A DNA stretch of 64,000 nucleotides from positions 124,001 through 188,000 of the forward strand of contig JAHBVU010000005.1 in assembly GCA_019637315.1 (NCBI GenBank), given 5' to 3'. Below the pieces are notes generated by a model. That model was not told the origin of the DNA, did no database searches, and worked only from the letters and a program-made list of their open reading frames with translations. The translations under genes and the position numbers were made by a program. The first letter of the stretch is position 1. Every line of letters begins with the position of its first letter. Positions 5,887-49,289 of the stretch are shown here, piece after piece. Origin of the DNA: Gemmatimonadales bacterium (GTDB lineage Bacteria; Gemmatimonadota; Gemmatimonadetes; Gemmatimonadales; GWC2-71-9).

Positions 5887-8800
5887 ATGCAGCTTGTTGC
5901 CCGTCTTGCCCTCTTCGTGTGGGTGCTGGGTGTTGCCGTCGGCTCAGCCAGCGCTCAGGTCAGTACCACCGATACCCGCCTCCTTGCTCAGCCGGCTGTC
6001 AGCGCCGATCGCGTCGCATTCACCTACGCCGGCGATCTTTGGACTGCCCGCCATGACGGGTCGGATCTGCGTCGGATTACCACCGCCGATGGCGACGAGA
6101 GCAGCCCGGTATTCTCTCGTGACGGCAAGTGGCTCGCCTTCGCGGGCAATTACGACGGCAACACCGACGTCTATGTGGTGTCCGCCGAGGGCGGGGAACC
6201 GCGGCGGTTGACCTGGCACCCCGGTCCCGACCTGCCGCAAGCGTTCTCGCCTGACGGCTCGACCGTCCTGTTCACCTCGAATCGGGCGGACTACTCGATG
6301 CGGTACACCCAGCTGTGGACCGTGCCGGTTGCGGGCGGTCCGGCCACTCGGCTGCCGATTCCCAATGGAGCGCAGGCGACCTACTCGCCTGACGGACGGT
6401 GGATTGCTTACAACCCCATCGGACGGCGGTTCGAGCAATGGAAAGGCTATCGTGGGGGCACGGTGTCGCAGCTCTGGCTGATCGATACCAGAACTTGGGA
6501 CATCGAGAAGGTGCCGCAACCGGCGGGCCGCTCGAACGACGTCGATGCGATGTGGCTCGAGCCAAACGTGGTGTGGTTCCGCTCGGATCGGGACGGCGAG
6601 TTCAATCTCTATCGCTATGATCGGTCGACCAAAACGGTCACCCCAGTTACCAGGCACACCGACTTCCCGGTGATGGCAGCATCGGCAGGCGCTGGCCGGA
6701 TCGTCTACGAGCAGGCGGGTTGGCTCCATTTGCTCGACCCCTCGTCCGGCCGGGCCCAGAAGCTCACGATCGGCGTGTCTGCAGATCTGCGTGAGACCCG
6801 TCCGCGATGGGTCAAGGGTGCGGACTTCGTTCGTAACGCGTCCGTGTCGCCCAGCGGTGCGAGGGTAGCGTTCGAGATGCGAGGGGAGATCGTCACGGTT
6901 CCTGCGGAGCAGGGGGACCCCCGCAATCTGTCGAATACACCCGGGGTTCATGAACGGTCTCCGGCATGGTCGCCCGATGGCTCTCAGATTGCCTATCTGT
7001 CGGATGACGGGGGCGAATACCGACTCCACCTCGTGCCGCAGGATGGCAAGGGGACCCGAAGAGTCATTCCGCTGACGGGCGCGGGGTTCTACTCGGACCT
7101 GCGCTGGTCACCGGACGGGAAGCGGATTGCCTATACCGACAATTCGCTCTCAGTGTTCGTGCTCGACGTCGCATCGGGTCGCAGTAATCGGGTTGGTGGG
7201 CATCGGACCTATACGCCGATCGGCGGGCCAGGGTATGCCTGGTCGCCTGATTCGCGGTGGCTGGCGTACTGGGTATACAGTCAACCGCTGGTAGCGACGC
7301 TCTCGCTCTACGACGCCGATCAGAATCGGTCGACGGTCATCACCGATGGGCTGAGCGAAGTGACGCAGCCGGTCTTCGAACGGAACGGCAAGTACCTCTA
7401 TGTGCTGGCCTCGACGGATGCCGGACCGGCTCTCGATTGGTTTGCGCAGAGTACGACGGGCTTGCGTCGGACCCGGGCAATCTACGCGATTGCCCTGAGC
7501 AAGGATGCGCCGAACCCCTTTGCAAAGCAGAGTGACGAGGAGGCTGCTGCTGCGGCTGCGAAGCCGGCCTCGCCATCCTCGCCATCCTCCTCGACGACGA
7601 CCGTGGATTTCGATGGGCTGGCCGACCGGATCGTCGCCTTTCCGGTGCCGGCGGCGGAGATTCTGCAACTCGAGGTAGGGGAGGCGAACCAGGTCTACTA
7701 CCTTCGCCTCACTGACGGCCGGCCCACGTTGCGTCGCTATGACGTGGTCAAGCGCAAGGATGACGTCGTCATACCGGAGGCCCAGGGCTTCGAGCTGACG
7801 GCGGACGGCAAGAAGCTACTCTATCGCAACGGACCGGCGTGGTTCATCACCTCGGCTGCGCAGCCACGCCCCGGGGAGGGTCGGGTCAATACCGGGTCGG
7901 TCGAGCTGCGGATCGACCCCCGGCTCGAGTGGGCCCAGATGTATCAGGAGGCGTGGCGGATAACCCGCGACTATTTCTATGCCCCGAATTTTCACGGGGT
8001 CGACTGGAACGCCCAGCGGGGCAAGTATGCGCCGCTGCTCGCGGCCGCGAGCAGCCGGGGGGATGTCGAGCGGGTGATTCGCTGGTTGTTGAGCGAGGTG
8101 CGGGTCGGACACAGTGGCCAGGGTCCTGGGCAGCGCCTTTCGCCACCAGGTCAGGTTGGGGTCGGCCTGCTTGGTGCGGATTACGAGATCGTCTCCGGAC
8201 GGTATCGGTTTGCTCGGGTGTACGGCGGGGTCAACTGGAATCCGACGCTGCGGTCGCCGCTGACCGAGCCCGGAGTCGGTGTCCGCACCGGAGAGTATCT
8301 CCTGGCGGTCAATGGTGTCTCGATTGCTCCGCCTACGAGCGTGTACAGCCCGTTCGAGCAGACGGTCGGCCGAGCGGTCGAGCTTACGGTCGGTCCGAAC
8401 CCGGATGGTACAGGGTCGAGAACGGTTACTGTCGTTCCGATCGGTTCGGAGGCACAGCTTCGGAACCGGTATTGGATCGAGAGCAACCTGCGACGGGTTG
8501 ATTCGGCAACGGGCGGTCGGGTGGCCTACGTCTATGTGCCGAACACCACCACGGCCGGGTACGAATCGTTCAAGCGGTACTTCTACCCGCAGGCGCACAA
8601 GGACGCGATCATCGTCGACGAGCGGTTCAACGGTGGCGGGCAGCTGGCAGACTACTACGTCGATGTGCTGGCGCGGCAGACGATGAGTTATTGGGCGATG
8701 CGGTATGGCGAGGATCTGCGGACGCCCACGGCGTCGATCGCCGGGCCGAAGGCACTGCTAATCGATGAAACAGCCGGCTCGGGCGGCGACTATTTCCCGT

Positions 8801-36569: not shown

Positions 36570-38566
36570 GGCGCGCTGCTCCAGGCGCGGAGCCCCGATC
36601 GCGAGGTGGTCGGCTGGCCAATGGCGCGCCGGGCCCGGGCCAGTGCCGCGGTCGGGTCATGATTGGTCCGCAGTGTGTCGATTGCCTGAGCCAGCGGACC
36701 CGCGAGGCGGGGGTGCTCGGCCAGCAAGTCCGCGCGAAGGAGGAGCAGGGAGTCGACGGCAGCATCTCGGCTTCGACCGAGCAGGTCGAGCGCCCGATCG
36801 AATCGTTCGACGATACGCCTCATGGCCGGGTCGAGCGGAGCCTGGGGCGTACGGGTGCTGGGCGCGATGCCGTCCCGTTTCCCTGTCAGGCGGACCTTCG
36901 CCACGTCGACGACCACCGGCCGAGTCCGGCCGCGCAGATAGATCCGATCCGCCAGCCGAGCACGCTGAATCGCATCGAGCGCTGCGTACATATGCGGTAG
37001 CGCGGCTCGGGGCTGGCCCAGGTTGAGTTCCCGGCTGGCCGCCCACATGGCGTGATACGCCTCGAGCAGGGGACGATTGACGGCGATGACTGGAGACTCC
37101 CCCGTGGCAAAGTCGAGGGCCTCTCCGCTCGCGTGCCGGTTGGCAGCCTCCGCGGCGCGGAGCAACTCCTCGGGCGTCATCGCGCTGTGGTCGTGGCCAT
37201 CGTCGTGCGAGTGCTCGCCGCTCTCGCCCAGGTCTTCGAGACGCGCAAAGACGAGGTCGCCGACCTGGCGACGCAACCGGGTCTGGTCGCGCGCAATCCG
37301 GGCCGACTCGGTCACGACCGTCGATCGAGTCAATCGGGGGAGCCTGGTACTGAGCGCTTCGGTCAGCAGTATCAGCATTCGCTGGCTCAGCAGATTGGCC
37401 AGCGGCTCTGCCGGGGGCAAAGCCTCGATCTCGAGCGAATCGTCCTGCCGCTCGGCCGCAAGCCGGATCACCCGCGGATCTGACCCCGCAATCCTCAGTC
37501 CAGCACTCGGGTTCGCGTCGCGCGCGACCGCGCGGAGCAGGACGATGTCGCCGGGTGCCAGCGCCAGCGAGTCGATCCGCAGGGCAAGTGATCGGGTAGC
37601 CGATCTCCTGTTGCCCGCCGGCGCGCGATCGAGGGTCACGGTTCGGAACTCGAAGTTCTCCCCGCCCCCCCGACTGACAGTCAGCTCCCACCATGTGTCG
37701 GCCAGCCCGAAATCGTCGTGGAAGGAGGCGGCAAGTGGCAGTGACCCGGTGGCACGATCGAGCATGGTGTCGCGTTCCGGGAGGTCGAGGCGAACGACAG
37801 GCAGAGAGTCGCCTCGCGGCTCGAGGAGGATGAGCCGCTCCTTTGCGCCGCGTCGCACCCGAACGACCGTCGGTGCTTCCGGCATCGTCAGGTCGGCACG
37901 CCAGCCGGACGCTCGCGTTGTTACCGTCAGTGCCCCGCTCTCGGTCTGTACGCTGAGTTGGTCAGCTGGGAGTGATCCCTCGATGGCAAGCCGACTGCCG
38001 CTAACGCCGGCCACCCGAATCGGGTCCGAAAGCCGCTCGACCCCCAGGCGGGTGTGCGGGGGCGGAGTGACGGTAACGGCCAGCCGAATGGGCGCATCCG
38101 TCGCAGGCTCTGTCTTGTCCTGGGTTAGCAGGCCGTTGGGCCCGGCGTCCGTGAGTTGCCGTGCAGCGATCAACCCGACGACAACGGCCCCTGCAACCAG
38201 GACAGGCAGGACGATCAGCCGCGCCGCAGCTCGGTACGCAGTTCGCTCGAACCCGACCGACTCGGTTTGTCGCTCGAGCTCCGGACGGTGGCCGCCCGCG
38301 GCGGTGTCGACTGCGGTGATCAGCGTGTACTGGAGCTCGGGGTGGCGCTCCTCGAGCCAGAGCGCGACGCGATCGGCTTCGAAGACCGCGCGCCGCCACC
38401 ACAGTGCAATTGCAATCGCAACGGTCGCTACGACTGCCGCCCAAGGTCGTGAACCCAGCGCGTGCCAGGTCGATACTGCCGCCGCCGCGCCCCAGACGAC
38501 GGCCGCTGCAACGCTGCCCACGATCAGGGCTCGCTGCGATCGATAGAGACGGGTGAGCGTCGTCAT
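36566..38566 (-). CDS. large membrane protein, DUF4175-like (MoxR cluster)
   Basis: A 666-residue protein. The ATG at 38566 overlaps the upstream BatA-like stop; an upstream open extension is rich in Arg and overlaps that gene fully, so it is not used. Transmembrane helices lie near 13-34, 41-57 and 116-135. A beta-rich extracytoplasmic region (about 145-410) leads to a helical C-terminal half. Around residue 460 lies an unusual His/Asp-rich loop (EHSHDDGHDHS) that could bind metal. The architecture fits DUF4175-type proteins of MoxR clusters. The function is unknown. Confidence 0.75.
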   Translation of the reverse strand: MTTLTRLYRSQRALIVGSVAAAVVWGAAAAVSTWHALGSRPWAAVVATVAIAIALWWRRAVFEADRVALWLEERHPELQYTLITAVDTAAGGHRPELERQTESVGFERTAYRAAARLIVLPVLVAGAVVVGLIAARQLTDAGPNGLLTQDKTEPATDAPIRLAVTVTPPPHTRLGVERLSDPIRVAGVSGSRLAIEGSLPADQLSVQTESGALTVTTRASGWRADLTMPEAPTVVRVRRGAKERLILLEPRGDSLPVVRLDLPERDTMLDRATGSLPLAASFHDDFGLADTWWELTVSRGGGENFEFRTVTLDRAPAGNRRSATRSLALRIDSLALAPGDIVLLRAVARDANPSAGLRIAGSDPRVIRLAAERQDDSLEIEALPPAEPLANLLSQRMLILLTEALSTRLPRLTRSTVVTESARIARDQTRLRRQVGDLVFARLEDLGESGEHSHDDGHDHSAMTPEELLRAAEAANRHASGEALDFATGESPVIAVNRPLLEAYHAMWAASRELNLGQPRAALPHMYAALDAIQRARLADRIYLRGRTRPVVVDVAKVRLTGKRDGIAPSTRTPQAPLDPAMRRIVERFDRALDLLGRSRDAAVDSLLLLRADLLAEHPRLAGPLAQAIDTLRTNHDPTAALARARRAIGQPTTSRSGLRAWSSAP

Positions 38567-39750
38567 GAAGACCGCCGCCGCAGCAGGTGTTCCGCAACGA
38601 GGGCAAACATTGCCAGGCCCAGCAGCCACGGCGATGGGCGGCCCTCTGAGGGCAATGCGGGAAGGTGCGCTGTCGGCAGTGATACGGTCGCCCCGCCCCG
38701 AATCCAGCTGACGATCGCCGAGTCGACAGGCTCGGCGTCGCGCCGTCCGCCGCAGGGCACCAGGAGATCGCGTATCAGGTCCCGGGTCGCCTGGCGCAGC
38801 GCGAGGTCGCCGGCGGGGTCGACCGGAATCTCGACTCGTCGAATGCAACCGCTGCCGTGCGGTCGGTCCGCGGCGGCCACCATTCCGTCCGCCCACCAGG
38901 CTCTGGCCGTGCCGTCGACGCGGGACCCGCTGCGCCGGAACGCTGCGGTCAGTACCGTGCGATCTGTCGCCACCGCGCCTGCCGTATCGCCGTCGGGTGC
39001 CGGCAGTGCCGGCCAGTGGATCAGCAGATGCGGCGCAGGCGATTGCTCAGCAGTCCAGGTGGAGTCGGCTCGGGTAAGAGTCTCTGTGCGGACCAGTCTG
39101 ATCGGTGCGGTCTCGCTGGTCGACCAGCCGCTCAGCGCGAGCGTGCTGCGGATCGGGTCGTCGGTGTCGGCCCGCACCGCAAGGGCGTGTGGACTGGGCG
39201 GTGCCGGAATGGTCTCGATCCCCACCCAGGTGATGCCTGCGGGCCAGGTGGACCGGACCGCCTCGGTAGCTGCGTCGAACGATTCGCGTGCCAGCGGCGA
39301 CACGATCACCAGGCTGACGCTATCGGTCGAACTGCGGAGAGACCGTGCTTCGCGAATTCCGGCAATCAGACCAGCCGAGAGGGAACTGAAGCGGATCGAG
39401 CGGTCGTGGCTGCGCGCCACGGTACGTACCGCGGCGTCGACCCCGACGCTGTCAGCAGCGCGTGAAGTATCGATCAGGATGACCTGGGTCAGGGCATGCC
39501 TCGACCCCTCGAGGCTGGGTTCTGCAAACGCCAGGGTTGCCGCGATCAGTGCAAGCAGCCTGAGCGCGAGGATCGCACGGTCGCTGAGGGCGACACTCCG
39601 GCTTACCAGCCGGTTCGGCGTTTCCGGGATGAACCGTGCGGTTGGCAGGGGGCGGGGCGCCGGATCGCGGCGGGTCAGCAGATGGAGCGCACTGATGATC
39701 AGGGCGCCGACGGCTCCCGCCAGGAGCCACCACGGTGCAGCGAAGCTCAT
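38563..39750 (-). CDS. BatA-type membrane protein (MoxR cluster)
   Basis: A 395-residue protein with a BatA N-terminal domain: MSFAAPWWLLAGAVGALIIS, a Leu/Thr linker, then a second helix (about 58-78). The middle resembles a von Willebrand factor A fold (VILIDTSRAADS), but the metal-site motif is D-x-S-x-A rather than D-x-S-x-S, so it may be degenerate. The final helix is near residue 370. It overlaps both neighbours by 4 nt (ATGA), which couples it to DUF58 upstream and the DUF4175-like gene downstream. Confidence 0.82.
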   Translation of the reverse strand: MSFAAPWWLLAGAVGALIISALHLLTRRDPAPRPLPTARFIPETPNRLVSRSVALSDRAILALRLLALIAATLAFAEPSLEGSRHALTQVILIDTSRAADSVGVDAAVRTVARSHDRSIRFSSLSAGLIAGIREARSLRSSTDSVSLVIVSPLARESFDAATEAVRSTWPAGITWVGIETIPAPPSPHALAVRADTDDPIRSTLALSGWSTSETAPIRLVRTETLTRADSTWTAEQSPAPHLLIHWPALPAPDGDTAGAVATDRTVLTAAFRRSGSRVDGTARAWWADGMVAAADRPHGSGCIRRVEIPVDPAGDLALRQATRDLIRDLLVPCGGRRDAEPVDSAIVSWIRGGATVSLPTAHLPALPSEGRPSPWLLGLAMFALVAEHLLRRRSS

Positions 39751-40655
39751 GTGGCGACGATCCGCCGAACGGCGTGCGCCGGCGGCTCGATCGTGTCGAT
39801 GAGGAGGTAGCGCGCGCCGAGTTCTTGCCAGCTTCGGGCGGTCTCAGCGCGCCATGCGGCAAAGGCCGTCTGATAGGCCGAGCGACCCGGCGCATCGAGG
39901 GTGCGGACCGTCGACGGATCCTCCGGGTCGGTGACCCGCGGAGCCTCCGGTGGATCCAGTTCCTCGGCAGCCACGATATGCGCTACGACTAGCTCTACCG
40001 CTTGCCTGCGCCACAGGCTTGCGACCTGAAGCAGTGCCGTGGTGTCGCCCAGCAGGTCGGAGATCACGACCAGCCGCCCGGTGTTGCGGAACCCGGACAG
40101 CAGTCGTCCCAGCTCCGTCGTGCCTGCTGGTGAGACGGCATCGAGGGTGCGAATCAGGCCTGGCAGCAGGGTGCGACGGGTCTGAAATGGCAGCTGCGAA
40201 GGCGTCGGTCCGCCGACCACCAGGCCGACGGGGTCGCCGGCAGCGTGAGCCAGGCTCGCCAGGCCGACCGCAATGGCGCAGGCCTGACACCACTTGGCAT
40301 GGCCTGGTTCAGGAAACGCCATCGACGCGGAGGCGTCGACGGCAATCAGCGTCGGAAGGACCGTGCGTTCGTCCGTGATGCGCAGGTAGGCGCGATCGGT
40401 GCGCGCCAGGAGCTTCCAGTCCAGCCGGCGCGGGTCGTCACCTTGCCGGTAGGCGCGGTACTCGGTCAGTTCGATGCTGGTGCCACGGCGACGTGACGCA
40501 TGCTGGCCGACGTTCGGCGACCGCGATCGGGCCCGGCTCGGCCACCGGACGCCGCGCAGTGCGTCGAGGAGTGGACCATGGCGGTGGCCGAATGGCGTGC
40601 TGCTGCTGCCCATTGGGAATGGAGTGTCGGCGGGCGCATCCGGCGGTATCCGCAC
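39747..40655 (-). CDS. DUF58 protein with vWA-like domain
   Basis: A 302-residue protein. The DUF58 signature YRQGDDPRRLDWKLLARTDR precedes a von Willebrand factor A-like domain with an intact metal-site motif (VDASASM) and a second segment (GLVVGG). DUF58 proteins are partners of MoxR AAA ATPases in chaperone or metal-insertion roles. The GTG start at 40655 lies 11 nt after the MoxR stop; an ATG 14 codons on is an alternative. Confidence 0.9.
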   Translation of the reverse strand: MRIPPDAPADTPFPMGSSSTPFGHRHGPLLDALRGVRWPSRARSRSPNVGQHASRRRGTSIELTEYRAYRQGDDPRRLDWKLLARTDRAYLRITDERTVLPTLIAVDASASMAFPEPGHAKWCQACAIAVGLASLAHAAGDPVGLVVGGPTPSQLPFQTRRTLLPGLIRTLDAVSPAGTTELGRLLSGFRNTGRLVVISDLLGDTTALLQVASLWRRQAVELVVAHIVAAEELDPPEAPRVTDPEDPSTVRTLDAPGRSAYQTAFAAWRAETARSWQELGARYLLIDTIEPPAHAVRRIVAT

Positions 40656-40666
40656 GGTGCCGTCTG

Positions 40667-41683
<1,017 letters not shown>

Positions 41684-41703
41684 GGTGTTGGTCAAGGGAT
41701 CGA

Positions 41704-41709: not shown

Positions 41710-41875
41710 CACCGTGGACCGTCTCCTCCTGCTCTATACGGATAGAAGGGTGGCCGTGTTTAGCTGCCGATCCCGGCCGGATTCGCGTATCTTGCTAAGA
41801 TGGGCCTGCCACAGATCGGTCCGTCGGGCGCACGCCTCCTGCGCTCGAGTCAATCCCTTCTTCGACGAGGTTGCC

Positions 41876-43504
41876 GTGTCCCCGAGTCGCCGGGAGTTTC
41901 TCCGAACCACTTCTGCCGCGGCTGCCGCTGGCCTGGCGCTCGGGATCACCGGGCGAGCCGAAGCGGCCGAGCTGTCGGGCAGGCTGATCGCGCCGTCGCC
42001 GGGCGATGCCGCACTCAACGACCTGTTGCTGCGGGCCCTCGACGCGGCGAAGTCGGCTGGTGCGCAGTATGCCGATGCCCGGATCAGCCTCAACCGCACC
42101 CAGAGCATCTTCACGCGGGAGCGACGCGTCGCCGGCCTTTCCGATAACGAAACGTTCGGGATCGGCGTTCGGGTGCTGGTCGAGGGAGCCTGGGGCTTCG
42201 CGGCCACCAGCAACCTGGAACCGGATTCGGTCGCGCGGGTGGCGCGACAGGCGGTGGCGCAGGCCAAGGCCAATCGCACGCCGGGACAGCGTCCTGTCGT
42301 GCTGGCGCCCGCCCCTGGCAACCAGCGGGGAACCTGGCGGAGCGATGCGAAGGTAGATCCCTTCACCGTCTCGATCGAGGACAAGGTCGAGCTGCTGCTC
42401 GCGGTCAACGCCATTGCGCTCAAGAACCCGCAGGCGCGCTTCGTCAACTCGAGCATGTTCTTTCTCAAAGACGAGAAGAGCTATGCCAACACCGAGGGAA
42501 CGCTCGTTTCGCAGACGATCATCCGGTCGCAGCCGACCGTGACCGTGACGGCCGTGTCGAAGGACTTCACGGATTTCCAGTCGCGGCAGAGCAATGACAT
42601 TGCGCCGATGGGTCGCGGCTACGAGCATGTGACCGAGAACAAGCTCGAAGAGAATGTCGTCCGCTGGGCCGACGAGGCAGTTCAGAAACTCTCCGCCAAG
42701 CCGGTCGAAGTGGGCCGGTACGACCTGGTGCTCCATCCCAACCATCTCTGGCTCACCATTCACGAGTCGATTGCACATCCGACCGAGCTCGACCGGGCCA
42801 TGGGTTACGAAGCAAACTATGCCGGTACCAGCTTTGTCTTTCCGCCCGAGAAGGTCCTTGGTACGCTCAAGTTCGGCTCGCCGCTGATGAATGTGCGCGG
42901 CGATCGCTCGCAGCCGGGATCGCTGGCGGCCTGTGGCTGGGACGACGATGGAGTAAAGCCGGACGAGTTCGACGTCGTCAGGGAAGGGATCTTCGTCGAC
43001 TATCAGACCACGCGCGAGCAGGCGCTCTGGCTCGATTCGTACTACAAGAAGGCCGGCAAGCCGACTCGTTCGCATGGCTGCTCCTACGCCCAGTCGTGGG
43101 CCGACGTCCAGTTTCAGCGAATGCCGAATATCTCGCTCCTGCCCGGGGACAAAGACATCGGGTGGAATGATCTCATCTCGGCAACCGATCGCGGCATCGC
43201 CATCATCGGCGACGGTTCGTTCTCGATCGATCAGCAGCGTTTCAACGCGCAGTTCGGCGGGCAGCTGTTCTATGAGATCCGCGGTGGCAAAATTGTCGGC
43301 ATGCTGAAGGATGTGGCTTATCAGATGCGGACCCCGGACTTCTGGGCCAATCTCGACATGCTCGGCGGGCCCAAGAGCTACGAGCTCGGCGGGGCGTTCA
43401 ACGATGGCAAGGGCCAGCCATCGCAATCCAACGCCGTGAGTCACGGCTGCGTGCCGACCCGTCATCGTGGCATCAACGTCATCAATACCGGGAGGCAGGC
43501 ATGA
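41876..43504 (+). CDS. TldD-family metalloprotease with Tat signal
   Basis: A 542-residue TldD protease. The GTG at 41876 sits 5 nt after GAGG and opens a twin-arginine signal (SRREFLRTTSAAAA, cleavage near AEAAE); the longer upstream frame has no start signal. The zinc site is HESIAH (296-301), matching HExxxH, with the third ligand probably the Cys at about 525 in SHGCVPTRH. E. coli TldD/TldE is cytosolic and degrades unfolded peptides and microcin precursors, so export is unusual. Its stop overlaps the TldE start (ATGA). Confidence 0.92.
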   Translation: MSPSRREFLRTTSAAAAAGLALGITGRAEAAELSGRLIAPSPGDAALNDLLLRALDAAKSAGAQYADARISLNRTQSIFTRERRVAGLSDNETFGIGVRVLVEGAWGFAATSNLEPDSVARVARQAVAQAKANRTPGQRPVVLAPAPGNQRGTWRSDAKVDPFTVSIEDKVELLLAVNAIALKNPQARFVNSSMFFLKDEKSYANTEGTLVSQTIIRSQPTVTVTAVSKDFTDFQSRQSNDIAPMGRGYEHVTENKLEENVVRWADEAVQKLSAKPVEVGRYDLVLHPNHLWLTIHESIAHPTELDRAMGYEANYAGTSFVFPPEKVLGTLKFGSPLMNVRGDRSQPGSLAACGWDDDGVKPDEFDVVREGIFVDYQTTREQALWLDSYYKKAGKPTRSHGCSYAQSWADVQFQRMPNISLLPGDKDIGWNDLISATDRGIAIIGDGSFSIDQQRFNAQFGGQLFYEIRGGKIVGMLKDVAYQMRTPDFWANLDMLGGPKSYELGGAFNDGKGQPSQSNAVSHGCVPTRHRGINVINTGRQA

Positions 43505-44889
43505 GCCGCGCATCGCAGGATCAGGCGCGGGTCATGTCGCGCGCCGAGGCGGAAGCGTTGGCCAAGCGTGTGCTGGCATTCGCCAAAGCTACGGAAACCC
43601 GAGTTTCGATCGTCAACGGCGTCAGGGGCAACACCCGTTTTGCCGTCAACCAGGTCTCTACCGCCGGCGACAATGTCGACACGACGATCGTGGTTCGCAG
43701 TGTGGTCGGCAAAAAGGTGGGGTCGTCGACCACCAATCGGGTCGACGATGCCGGCCTCAAGGCCGTGGTCGAATCGTCCGAACGCCTGGCTCGCCTCTCG
43801 CCCGATGATGCGGAGCTAATGCCCGAACTCGGCCCGCAGCAGTATCGCGACGGCCTCGGCTGGAGCGACCGAACGGCCGCCCTCGATCCGGCCGGTCGCG
43901 CTGCCGGCGTGCGACTGATTACGGACCAGTCGAAGGCGGCAGGCCTCGTTGGCACCGGGTATCTCGAGACTCGGGCAACGGCGCAGGCCATTGCCAACTC
44001 AAAGGGATTGTTCGCGTATACGCGCGATACCAGCGTGGCCTTGACCACGACGGTGCGCAACGAGGAAGGGACCGGCTCCGGCTGGGCTGGCAGTACCTCG
44101 AGCGACTGGGGTCAGATCGATCCCGCTGCGCTCGGTGCGCGTGCGGTCGACAAGGCCCGCCGCTCCACGCCCGCCTCGGCCGTCGAGCCGGGTCGCTACA
44201 CCGTCATCCTCGAACCGACCGCCGTCGGCAATCTCGTGCAGCTCATCCTCGGCGCCACCAGTGCGCGCAACGCTGATGAGGGCCGCAGTTTCTTTACCAA
44301 GCAGGGCGGCGGCAACAAGATCGGCAGCAAGATCGTCGACGAGCGGGTTTCGCTCGTGAGTGATCCCTTCGATCCGCAGACCCCGGGCAGTCCCTTTACC
44401 GGCGATGGCCTGCCGACCGATCGGGTCGTCTGGGTCGAGAACGGCGTCGTGCGGAATCTCAACTACGATCGCTACTGGGCCGAGAAGCAGGGCAAGCAGC
44501 CGACCGGTGTTTCCGGCGGCGGCTTCGGCTTCAGCGGCGTGCTCAAGATGTCGGGCGGGAGTGAGACACTCGAGTCGATGATCGCAGGATGCCAGCGGGG
44601 CCTGCTGGTCACCCGGTTCTGGTACATCCGTCCGGTCGATCCGCGGACCATCCTGTACACCGGTCTGACGCGCGATGGGACCTTCCTGATCGAAAACGGC
44701 AAGATCACTCGCGCGGTGCGCAACCTGCGGTTCAACGAGTCGCCGATTTTCATGCTCAACAACATCGAGGCGATGGGCGCGCCGGTACGGGTCTCGTCGA
44801 GTGAAAGCGGCAGTCCTGGCAGCAGCGTGGTGGTTCCGCCGATGCGCGTGCGTGACTTCAACTTCACGTCGCTCTCCGAAGCGGTCTAG
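43501..44889 (+). CDS. TldE/PmbA-family protein
   Basis: A 462-residue TldE-like partner of TldD. It has the family C-terminal segments (GRSFFTKQGG, IGSKIVDERVSLVSDP, FIENGKIT-like FLIENGKITRAVRN) but no HExxxH, as expected since TldE completes the TldD heterodimer without binding the zinc. There is no signal peptide, even though the coupled TldD has a Tat signal. A strong hairpin follows 18 nt after the stop. Confidence 0.92.
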   Translation: MSRASQDQARVMSRAEAEALAKRVLAFAKATETRVSIVNGVRGNTRFAVNQVSTAGDNVDTTIVVRSVVGKKVGSSTTNRVDDAGLKAVVESSERLARLSPDDAELMPELGPQQYRDGLGWSDRTAALDPAGRAAGVRLITDQSKAAGLVGTGYLETRATAQAIANSKGLFAYTRDTSVALTTTVRNEEGTGSGWAGSTSSDWGQIDPAALGARAVDKARRSTPASAVEPGRYTVILEPTAVGNLVQLILGATSARNADEGRSFFTKQGGGNKIGSKIVDERVSLVSDPFDPQTPGSPFTGDGLPTDRVVWVENGVVRNLNYDRYWAEKQGKQPTGVSGGGFGFSGVLKMSGGSETLESMIAGCQRGLLVTRFWYIRPVDPRTILYTGLTRDGTFLIENGKITRAVRNLRFNESPIFMLNNIEAMGAPVRVSSSESGSPGSSVVVPPMRVRDFNFTSLSEAV

Positions 44890-45929: not shown

Positions 45930-48626
45930 TCAGCGTAAGGGGAGCAAACCCAGGCGGTGCAGGCGGGGGTCGTCGTCGAGCGGACGCAGGTCCTGCCGTG
46001 AGGAGGCGTGAATCCAGGCAATGCCGCTGAGACTGCTGCCGACAGCCTCGCTCCAGAGCGCTACGGCCCGCTCCCGGTCGCCAGCGATGGCGGCGTGTCT
46101 GGCCTGGTACACCAGGAATCCGCCCCGGCCATACGGAGGTGGTTCGCCGAGCCAGCGGGTTGCGCCGGCCGAGTCGCCCAGCCTGGCGGCGATCAGGCTG
46201 GCCAACCCTCTGAACTGGAGCTCATCAGGATAGTCATTCGCCAACGATTCAAAGTACGGCTGTGCATCCTGCCAGGCTCCCTGATCGTAGCGAGCGGAGC
46301 CCAGCCAGAACCGGTGAGCTCGATGGTCCGGAGTCCTGGCGAGCTGGTTGGCCAGCCATCGTTCAGCCGCAGCATAGTACCTCGGTGCCCGGCTAGCGAA
46401 GCCGTGCGCCTCGAGTTCTTCGGCAGCAGTGACCAGCATGGCGCCTTGCGACCAGTAGGTGTCGGGTGGCAACGCGCTGGCATCGGCGACCAGGGAGTCG
46501 AGCGCGACCGTGTCGCCGAGCGACGCGAGTGCCCGGGTCAGGTGGACCCAGCCTGCCCGGCTGTCGGGGTGGCGTCGACGAAGTTCTCGGCCGGCCTCGA
46601 CTTCGTCCTGATAGCGACCCTGGAGGTGCAAGGCATGGCCGAGCACGAACCAGTAGGGAGCCCAGCCGCGGAAGGCGCCGGCGTCGGGGTCGACTCGCCG
46701 GAGCACCTCGAGCGCCTCGTCCGAGCGCCCGACCGAGATTGCCGCCAGCGCCACGTTGTACTCGACGCGACCGCCGGGGGCCAGGGCGGCCGCTTCGCGG
46801 ATGGCCCGCAGCGCGCCGATGCCGTCGCCGGCGAGCCGGTGCTCCAGGTAACGAATCTGATTCTCGTCGTACGGATTGAGCGTCAAGCCGCGGGATCGAA
46901 CTGATCGCAGCAGCGAATCGACGCGGCCTGGTTCGCCGGCGTTCCAGAGCGCCCGCCCGGCGTACGCAAGCGCCTGCTGAAAGGTGGTGTCCTCTTGCCA
47001 GGCCGCCAGCAGATCCGCCGAGGCCCGTCGATAGTCCTGGCGATTGTGGGCCTCGATGCCACGCTCGAACAACTGATAGGCGCGGTAGGTGGGCGGCCGG
47101 CCAGTGGCTCCCCCCGGTCGGTCGAGTCGATCGTCCGTGCGAACGGCCAGCAGCCCCATCAACCGCTCGCGGAGCAAGCCCACGCCCAGGCCGATCGAGT
47201 CGCGGGGTACTTCTCGCGTCGTCACCGTGGCGACCACCGTTCCGCTGGGCACCTCGGTCAGTTCGGCCTGAAACCGGATCTGCTCACCGATCAGGTAGTA
47301 CGATCCCGTCACGACACTGCGGGCGCCGGTAGCCGCCGCGATGGCAGTGACGGTACTGCCGCCTTGAGGCAGCGACTCCGCGCGAGCGGCTTCGAGCGCG
47401 ACCGGCCACGGAATCACGGAGGCCCGCCCGGTTTCCTGCAGTCCCTGGGTCAGCCAGTCTCCCGCCAGGCGCCCCCAGATGGCCAGCGTCGAATCGCCGG
47501 TCTCGTTCCGCAGGGGGGTGACCGCGACGGGACCGGAGTCCTGATCGAGTACCGTCACCGGAGTGCGCAGTTGCCAGAGCAGGGCGCTGCCCACGGTCAA
47601 CGTCGCAGTCACGCCGAGGGCCGCAATGGCCCGGGTCAGCCGGCGACGATGACGGGTCAGTCGGTCCAGCATGGTCAGGATAGCGGTGCCATCGGCTGGC
47701 CGCCCGGCCGGGTCGGGAGCAAGCGCAGCGCGAATCAGGGGGGCGATGACCGACCGGTCGGCGGTGGGTCCCAAGGTTTCGCGGGCCACCAGTCCCCAGG
47801 CGTAGACATCGGCCCGCGCGTCGACCTGATGCCCAACGGCCTGCTCGGGCGCCATGTAGGCCAGGGTTCCGATCGCCATGCCTTCCAGCGTGTCCATCGG
47901 AGAACCTCGCCTGGTGAGTTTCGCCACACCGAAATCCATCAGGAACGCGTGGCCATCGACCACCAGGACATTCTCCGGCTTGAGGTCGCGATGGACGAAT
48001 CCTGCCTGGTGCGCATGGCCGAGCGCCAGGGCGATGTCACGAATCACCGTGGTCGCGGCGCCGGCCGCGAGCGGCCCCTGATCGAGGCGTTGCCGGAGGG
48101 TCACCCCCTCATGATACGGCATGACATAGTAGAGCAGCCCCTCACTTTCGCCGGAGTCGATCAGCGGAATGATGTGAGGGTGGGACAGCTTTGCAACGAT
48201 CCGGATCTCATCGAGAAAACGGGCGGCGCCGACCCAGCGGGCAACCTCCGGTCGCAACACCTTGAGCACGACCGGGCGGTCGTGCTTGGCTTCCTGCGCC
48301 AGGTAGACAGTGGCCATTCCTCCTTCACCCAAGACGCGCTCGATGCGGTAGCGCGCCCCCAGGGTTGTCGCGAGGCGTTCCATCGTCTCGGCGGCTGAGT
48401 CGGGGGTCATCATGGCGGCAGGAATCGGCGCATCGAGGATGCCCTGATGTTCGGCAGCGTCGAGCAGAGCGAGTACCTGGTTGCGAAGGTCCGGATCGGC
48501 GGGTGCCGAGCGAATCCAGTCACGTCGGCTGCCCTCGGGCTGATCGAGCGCGCGTTCGAACAGCGCATCGACCAGATCCCACTCCGGATCGGTCGGCCTA
48601 CTTGGCGGCTGCACCTGCGTCACCAT
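45930..48626 (-). CDS. membrane Ser/Thr protein kinase with TPR-rich C-terminus
   Basis: An 898-residue Hanks-type kinase. The ATG at 48626 overlaps the sigma-factor stop by 29 nt; a longer extension would be Arg/Ser-rich. The kinase domain (about 92-325) has the Gly loop (GEGGMATVYLA), Lys122, the catalytic loop HRDLKPENV (212-220), DFG (231-233) and APE. A transmembrane helix near 332-352 is followed by an extracytoplasmic part with about a dozen TPR-like helical repeats (about 500-890). It is intact, and it is co-transcribed with an ECF sigma factor, a common pairing in this lineage. Confidence 0.92.
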   Translation of the reverse strand: MVTQVQPPSRPTDPEWDLVDALFERALDQPEGSRRDWIRSAPADPDLRNQVLALLDAAEHQGILDAPIPAAMMTPDSAAETMERLATTLGARYRIERVLGEGGMATVYLAQEAKHDRPVVLKVLRPEVARWVGAARFLDEIRIVAKLSHPHIIPLIDSGESEGLLYYVMPYHEGVTLRQRLDQGPLAAGAATTVIRDIALALGHAHQAGFVHRDLKPENVLVVDGHAFLMDFGVAKLTRRGSPMDTLEGMAIGTLAYMAPEQAVGHQVDARADVYAWGLVARETLGPTADRSVIAPLIRAALAPDPAGRPADGTAILTMLDRLTRHRRRLTRAIAALGVTATLTVGSALLWQLRTPVTVLDQDSGPVAVTPLRNETGDSTLAIWGRLAGDWLTQGLQETGRASVIPWPVALEAARAESLPQGGSTVTAIAAATGARSVVTGSYYLIGEQIRFQAELTEVPSGTVVATVTTREVPRDSIGLGVGLLRERLMGLLAVRTDDRLDRPGGATGRPPTYRAYQLFERGIEAHNRQDYRRASADLLAAWQEDTTFQQALAYAGRALWNAGEPGRVDSLLRSVRSRGLTLNPYDENQIRYLEHRLAGDGIGALRAIREAAALAPGGRVEYNVALAAISVGRSDEALEVLRRVDPDAGAFRGWAPYWFVLGHALHLQGRYQDEVEAGRELRRRHPDSRAGWVHLTRALASLGDTVALDSLVADASALPPDTYWSQGAMLVTAAEELEAHGFASRAPRYYAAAERWLANQLARTPDHRAHRFWLGSARYDQGAWQDAQPYFESLANDYPDELQFRGLASLIAARLGDSAGATRWLGEPPPYGRGGFLVYQARHAAIAGDRERAVALWSEAVGSSLSGIAWIHASSRQDLRPLDDDPRLHRLGLLPLR

Positions 48627-49179
48627 AGACCTCGCGATAGAGCCATGCCCGCGCCTTGGCCCAGTCACGTTGCACCGTTCTGGTCGTGACGCCGAGCGCC
48701 GTGGCGATCTCCTCTTCGCCGAGCCCGGCAAAGAACTTGAGTTCAACTACACTGCGCATTCTGTCGCTGATTGCCGACAGCCGGTCGAGCGCGTCGTCGA
48801 GCGCGACGAGCTCGTCGGCAGGCATGGCGCGATCTGGCAGCGCCGCGTCGAGGTCGACTGGTGTGGCCCCATCCCCCCGTTTCCGAGCCCGCTTGCGCCG
48901 GGCGTGGTCGACCAGGATCTGGCGCATGGCCCTCGCCGCAATGGCGAGGAAGTGCCCGCGATCCGCCGCGGGGATGGATCCGCTGCCTATCAGTTTGAGG
49001 TATGCTTCGTGGACCAGCGCAGTTGGCACGAGCGTATGGCCGGGCCGCTCCGCCCGGAGCGCGTGCTCGGCGGCGAGCCGGAGCTGAGCGTAGACGAGCG
49101 GAAAAAGTTGGTCGAGCGCGGCGGCATCGCCGTCGCTGACGCGGGCGAGCAGCTGGGTAACCGGGCCGGAAGGTGCCAT
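48598..49179 (-). CDS. ECF-subfamily RNA polymerase sigma factor (TIGR02999 type)
   Basis: A 193-residue sigma factor. The ATG at 49179 gives the usual start (MAPSGPVTQLLAR). Region 2 runs about 12-90 (HTLVPTALVHEAYLKL, GHFLAIAARAMRQILVDHAR) and region 4 about 125-185 (GLGEEEIATALGVTTRTVQRDW). These match the TIGR02999 group, which is found next to Ser/Thr kinases in Gemmatimonadota and Acidobacteriota; the kinase overlaps it here. Its control by phosphorylation or by other partners is an inference. Confidence 0.92.
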   Translation of the reverse strand: MAPSGPVTQLLARVSDGDAAALDQLFPLVYAQLRLAAEHALRAERPGHTLVPTALVHEAYLKLIGSGSIPAADRGHFLAIAARAMRQILVDHARRKRARKRGDGATPVDLDAALPDRAMPADELVALDDALDRLSAISDRMRSVVELKFFAGLGEEEIATALGVTTRTVQRDWAKARAWLYREVYGDAGAAAK

Positions 49180-49216
49180 CGGCAACTCGTGTCGGGAAAT
49201 CAGGTATGCCTTCGCA

Positions 49217-49225
49217 AATATACCA
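49217..49225 (-). promoter_or_regulatory. candidate extended -10 for the sigma-kinase operon
   Basis: On the minus strand the sequence TGGTATATT is an extended -10 (TGn plus TATATT), 37 nt before the sigma-factor ATG. No -35 is obvious, which extended -10 promoters do not need. Confidence 0.45.
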
Positions 49226-49289
49226 GTAGCTCGTGACCGCGCCATGTTGGTTGCGCGTCGATCTGTTCCGACTCGAAGGAGGAGCCCCT

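Follow-up and report, generated by a model that had tools for sequence, protein, structure and literature searches.

Predicted Tat export of TldD with a signal-less TldE partner, and an aspartate at the position of the cysteine metal ligand, in Gemmatimonadota

TldD and TldE are known as a cytoplasmic protease that acts on leader peptides and small proteins. In the E. coli heterodimer both subunits are required, TldE supplies no metal ligand, the metal ligands of TldD are His262, His267 and Cys454, and a bridge connects Lys456 with Glu270 and Asp272; the same report makes a comparison with Glu166 of thermolysin, an enzyme that has a carboxylate as its third ligand (PMC5810440). The Tat pathway, in turn, exports heterodimers that carry a signal on one partner (PMC10924467). 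In the limited set of open-access papers that we searched, no exported TldD has been described.

The stretch of DNA analyzed here (the window, 64,000 nucleotides) belongs to a 3.9 Mb genome with relatives in the Gemmatimonadota. Its tldD gene (41876..43504, + strand) encodes 542 amino acids from a GTG start, which lies 5 nt downstream of a Shine-Dalgarno-like GAGG sequence (41867..41870, + strand). The protein matches the three PmbA/TldD domains PF01523, PF19290 and PF19289, all above the Pfam cut-offs, and its AF2 model (pLDDT 84.6, ordered from approximately residue 45) finds TldD chains as its best PDB matches, with a Z score of 34.6 to E. coli TldD (5njf/5nj5) and about 30.8 to E. coli TldE. 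The following gene, tldE (43501..44889, + strand), has an ATG start and encodes a PmbA-type, non-catalytic protein of 462 amino acids, in which all three PmbA/TldD domains score above cut-off and HExxxH is absent. Its model (pLDDT 87.9) is most similar to Thermococcus TldE (Z 36.3) and closer to E. coli TldE (Z 32.6) than to E. coli TldD (Z 27.8), so that a protein of TldE fold lacking HExxxH is encoded alongside TldD. The two genes overlap by 4 nt, the tldE ATG lying inside the tldD stop (ATGA). A search of the window against Rfam gave no match.

The N-terminus of TldD, MSPSRREFLRTTSAAAAAGLALGITGRAEAAEL, has the appearance of a textbook Tat signal. The predicted signal peptide, MSPSRREFLRTTSAAAAAGLALGITGRAEA, covers residues 1-30 (41876..41965, + strand) and contains an S-R-R-E-F-L motif, an h-region and an A-E-A site, with cleavage predicted between AEA and AEL. 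The window protein itself scores just under the curated cut-offs of the corresponding models (17.8 versus 22.7 bits for PF10518; 16.6 versus 16.7 for TIGR01409). Conservation of residues R5, R6 and F8 reaches at least 90% in 35 homologues with 54-83% identity to it, against a background of drift elsewhere in the signal and variation at residues 20-40. The clade comprises 169 distinct members, 166 of them with a complete N-terminus, and the Tat motif with its h-region is found in 165 of these 166 Gemmatimonadota relatives; the sole relative without it (L111) is located at a contig edge and has an apparently scrambled N-terminus. An AxA cleavage site is present in 63 of 76 paired TldDs. In two homologues (L038 and L044) the Tat motif is followed by a lipobox-like AGC, so that they are predicted lipoproteins; such variants, like the one in Parabacteroides described below, make sense only if TldD is exported, and thus count for export. 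A Tat signal apparent in a Cys-type TldD (L131) was dismissed as a false positive. Genes for TatC and TatA occur in the same genome as the tldDE genes of the window. The family comparison is decisive for the predicted signal despite the marginal scores of the window protein, and the assignment of TldD as a predicted Tat substrate is supported across the phylum.

The initial annotation of this DNA had read a Tat signal on TldD but no signal on its partner, and both halves of that reading extend to homologous pairs, where TIGR01409 matches 23 of 35 TldDs and none of 24 TldEs. It had also raised the possibility that correction of the start codon would remove the signal from TldD homologues. The GTG start and the purine-rich sequence upstream of it are kept in the four closest relatives (L033-L036), and inspection of the window sequence revealed no ATG or GTG after the signal and before the folded domain; since the model is ordered only from about residue 45, such a correction does not remove the signal. 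For TldE, the N-terminus, MSRASQDQARVMSRAEAEALAKRVL, is devoid of a hydrophobic stretch, and its open frame in the window contains no ATG, GTG or TTG upstream of the assigned start. None of the 81 TldEs adjacent to Tat-TldDs has a signal peptide; RR strings in nine of the TldE N-termini were rejected as signals, since no h-region accompanies them and they are located within helix 1 or ahead of it. These pairs thus show the pattern of hitchhiker complexes, with a Tat signal on one subunit only.

The start of tldE overlaps the stop of tldD in 77 of the 81 pairs (by 4 nt in 57 and by 1 nt in 20), and translational coupling of the two genes, proposed earlier for the window, is likely because of this overlap. 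Distances among TldDs and among TldEs are correlated with a Mantel r of 0.91, a value reached in none of 500 permutations and one that reflects in part the shared history of the genomes. At seven loci two pairs stand in tandem; the copies in a locus share 53-68% identity, and every TldD subtype is accompanied by the matching TldE subtype. Among eight genomes checked, none was found to encode a Tat-type TldD without a TldE. Strict 1:1 pairing is nevertheless not universal: Tat-TldDs without an adjacent tldE occur at two loci (L107 and L111), extra TldDs at four others (L047, L056, L080 and L084), and the layouts seen include TldD-TldE-TldD, TldD-TldD-TldE and single Tat-TldDs. The mean number of cysteines per TldE is 1.1 beside a Tat-TldD versus 2.6 beside Cys-type TldDs of the same phylum, in a comparison uncorrected for relatedness. 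By eye, the Tat-TldD in the two Longimicrobium-like loci L107 (7600-10400) and L111 (1800-4400) is followed immediately by apparent secD and secF genes.

A feature beyond the claims of the initial annotation is a change of Cys to Asp at the predicted metal site. The zinc-binding and catalytic motif HExxxHxxExD (42761..42793, + strand) is invariant in the alignment, and its residues H296, E297, H301, E304 and D306 correspond to H262, E263, H267, E270 and D272 of E. coli, as expected of a TldD. Toward the C-terminus, D510-G-K512 (43403..43411, + strand) aligns without gaps with the CGK of Mycobacterium TldD, and Asp thereby stands where E. coli has Cys454; this equivalence rests on intermediate sequences, as the C-terminal motif is displaced by two to three columns in automatic alignments that use only the E. 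coli protein. The window TldD thus keeps both His, the Glu, the Asp and the Lys of the E. coli site and lacks the Cys that serves there as third metal ligand. That ligand is described for E. coli TldD, and it is debatable whether it is a defining trait of the family; hence the window protein is classified as a variant TldD.

By motif-anchored counting, Asp occupies this position in all 159 sequences of the exported clade that have HExxxH and a complete C-terminus, and in none of the eight exported relatives without HExxxH, which may descend from few loss events. All eight retain the Tat signal, and the Lys-Gly-Gln/Glu-Pro that follows the Asp position remains in them. The joint loss of Asp and HExxxH supports a role for D510 in the metal site, where it would be the third ligand in place of Cys. 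Cys is kept at the ligand position in plasmid-borne TldDs of Pseudomonas and Burkholderia and in E. coli-like TldDs of Gemmatimonadota; the outgroups of the exported clade are plasmid records and E. coli. A conserved cysteine, C402, was considered as the replacement third ligand and rejected, because Longimicrobium-like homologues have Asn or His there; C525 also varies. With a carboxylate in this position the TldD site would become thermolysin-like, and protection of the metal site against oxidation may be offered as speculation.

A separate observation concerns apparent exported pseudoproteases lacking both HExxxH and the Asp (L255 and L248, L249, L250, L251 and L252, from genomes G006, G242 and G112). 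All retain the Tat signal, with an adjacent TldE wherever the flanking sequence is available, and five copies are found in G242.

The same asymmetry is observed in Parabacteroides distasonis (WP_010183233.1 and WP_211744342.1), where TldD bears a Tat signal and the adjacent TldE has none. The TldD of this species (L187, 1831-3363) combines the Tat signal with a lipobox, MNINRRDFIKTGGMVMLGTLAAPSLLGSC, and is a predicted lipoprotein. It differs from the window TldD in belonging to the E. coli-like branch, with about 41% identity to the E. coli protein, and in keeping the Cys ligand. On a tree of 52 TldDs, built by a quick method and containing long branches, the Tat signal was gained at least twice and Asp once, the latter on the branch that leads to the Gemmatimonadota clade. 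Judged from these sequences, pairs in which only TldD has a signal evolved twice, and two origins of this asymmetry strengthen the co-export reading. A strict rule equating export with an Asp ligand, which we considered, fails on the Parabacteroides protein: since this exported TldD keeps Cys, Asp is not required for export and is a feature of a single clade. That Parabacteroides is an anaerobe would fit the oxidation argument but is no proof of it. No related sequences were found in the viral contigs searched.

The best explanation of these patterns, which we hold to be quite probable, is a Tat-exported TldD/E heterodimer with TldE as a hitchhiker. TldD would fold, take up its metal and bind TldE in the cytoplasm; its Tat signal would then take both proteins, already folded, through the inner membrane, TldE crossing without a signal of its own, and would be cut after AEA. 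Outside the cytoplasm the pair is expected to resemble E. coli TldD/E in its activity, a metallopeptidase for substrates that are peptides or unfolded, its metal held by H296, H301 and, where E. coli has cysteine, D510. From heterodimer formation and co-export to peptidase activity and its substrates, these steps are predictions drawn from the pattern of sequences, and the location of TldE and the ligand role of D510 are its direct predictions. Co-export of a folded heterodimer is well supported as the simplest reading of a pair that co-diverges, with TldE presumed to follow its partner.

It is highly improbable that the TldD N-terminus is no working Tat signal at all, a wrong start or a chance RR having misled the prediction, and that both proteins are cytoplasmic. 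The sub-threshold scores of the window protein agree with this idea; a motif common to 165 of 166 relatives, the retention of R5, R6 and F8 while residues 20-40 vary, the conserved GTG with no ATG or GTG before the domain, the existence of lipobox variants and the presence of tatA and tatC all contradict it. If the signal works, TldD could still be exported alone and be active without TldE, as a monomer, as a homodimer or with another TldD, with TldE remaining cytoplasmic and serving some other function. Some Tat-TldD genes without an adjacent tldE, such as those of L107 and L111, the extra tandem TldDs and the fact that the signal is never on TldE could all be read in this way. We consider it unlikely, as TldE co-diverges with TldD pair by pair and its gene overlaps tldD in 77 of 81 loci, genomes with extra TldDs still encode TldE, and both subunits are needed in E. 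coli (PMC5810440).

TldE might instead be a cytoplasmic chaperone of TldD, comparable to the proofreading chaperones of Tat redox enzymes, that releases its client before export. Tat substrates often have dedicated chaperones, NapD of NapA being one example, and under such an arrangement the constant pairing and the absent signal would look identical. A full TldE fold is, however, unlike a small signal-binding chaperone, in the solved homologue TldE makes up one half of the enzyme in stoichiometric amounts (PMC5810440), and the low Cys count weakly fits an exported protein; a chaperone role is accordingly doubtful in our view, and co-export of the heterodimer remains the preferred explanation.

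The initial annotation also noted that tldDE is divergent from a MoxR cluster and suggested that the protease could act on the substrates of the latter. The divergent arrangement is indeed present in the window, where genes for a MoxR ATPase, a DUF58 protein and a BatA-N protein (PF07726, PF01882 and PF07584) occupy 38563..41695 on the - strand; the link to substrates is weak, the same layout being found in 5 of 80 homologous loci, namely the nearest four (L033-L036) and L060. In three others (L053, L079 and L101) the cluster is nearby in another arrangement, and it was not found in the remaining 72 of 80, many of them with shortened flanks. Because of this absence, the MoxR cluster does not qualify as a general partner of TldDE or as a general source of its substrates, and it is probably not part of the tldDE system, with a functional link possible in the window's own lineage. 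Altogether MoxR-DUF58-BatA genes lie near 8 of the 80 loci, perhaps above expectation for such a cluster. On the other side of tldDE, downstream of it, we observed by eye, at 45930-49245 on the - strand, an ORF for an ECF-type sigma-factor-like protein that precedes a gene for a Ser/Thr kinase-like protein, the C-terminal part of which is long and repeat-like.

A wider proposal, to which we give about even credence, is that a class of extracytoplasmic TldD/E proteases, exported by Tat hitchhiking as folded heterodimers, is phylum-wide; that export and the switch from Cys to Asp came together, so that a peptide-deformylase-like site became thermolysin-like and better fitted to oxidising surroundings; and that this lineage also yielded exported members that are still paired with TldE and have no metal motif. 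If true, a phylum-wide exported TldD/E would put the enzyme in the cell envelope, would extend the small set of Tat hitchhikers to a non-redox enzyme, and would provide a natural experiment on the adaptation of a metal site to export.

Compared with E. coli TldD/TldE (PmbA; PMC5810440; PDB 5NJ5 and mutants), the window pair shares both folds, the HExxxHxxExD motif, the Lys two residues past the third ligand and the division into one catalytic and one non-catalytic subunit. It differs in that the E. coli genes are unlinked and their products have no signals, whereas here the genes form an overlapping operon with a Tat signal on TldD; Cys454, the third ligand there, is replaced by Asp here, and identity is only about 20%. 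The closest non-exported relatives found are actinobacterial pairs, on a Mycobacterium ulcerans plasmid (L122) and in Nonomuraea (L121), with TldDs 40-43% identical to that of the window, adjacent tldD and tldE genes and the same layout of the C-terminal motif. These TldDs have no signal peptide, and in a gap-free alignment their NCGK stands against NDGK in the window protein. The genome of the window contains in addition a second TldD-TldE-like pair (G000:C11:80088-82700; L120, ORFs at 6035 and 7018), neither member of which has HExxxH; the other searched genomes of the genus match a pair of this kind and no Tat-type TldD. With the known Tat hitchhikers, NiFe hydrogenases, formate dehydrogenases and PaoABC (PMC10924467, PMC4273604), the window pair has in common that one subunit bears the signal; those named are redox enzymes with established co-export, whereas TldD/E of the window is a predicted peptidase that would be co-exported in the same manner.
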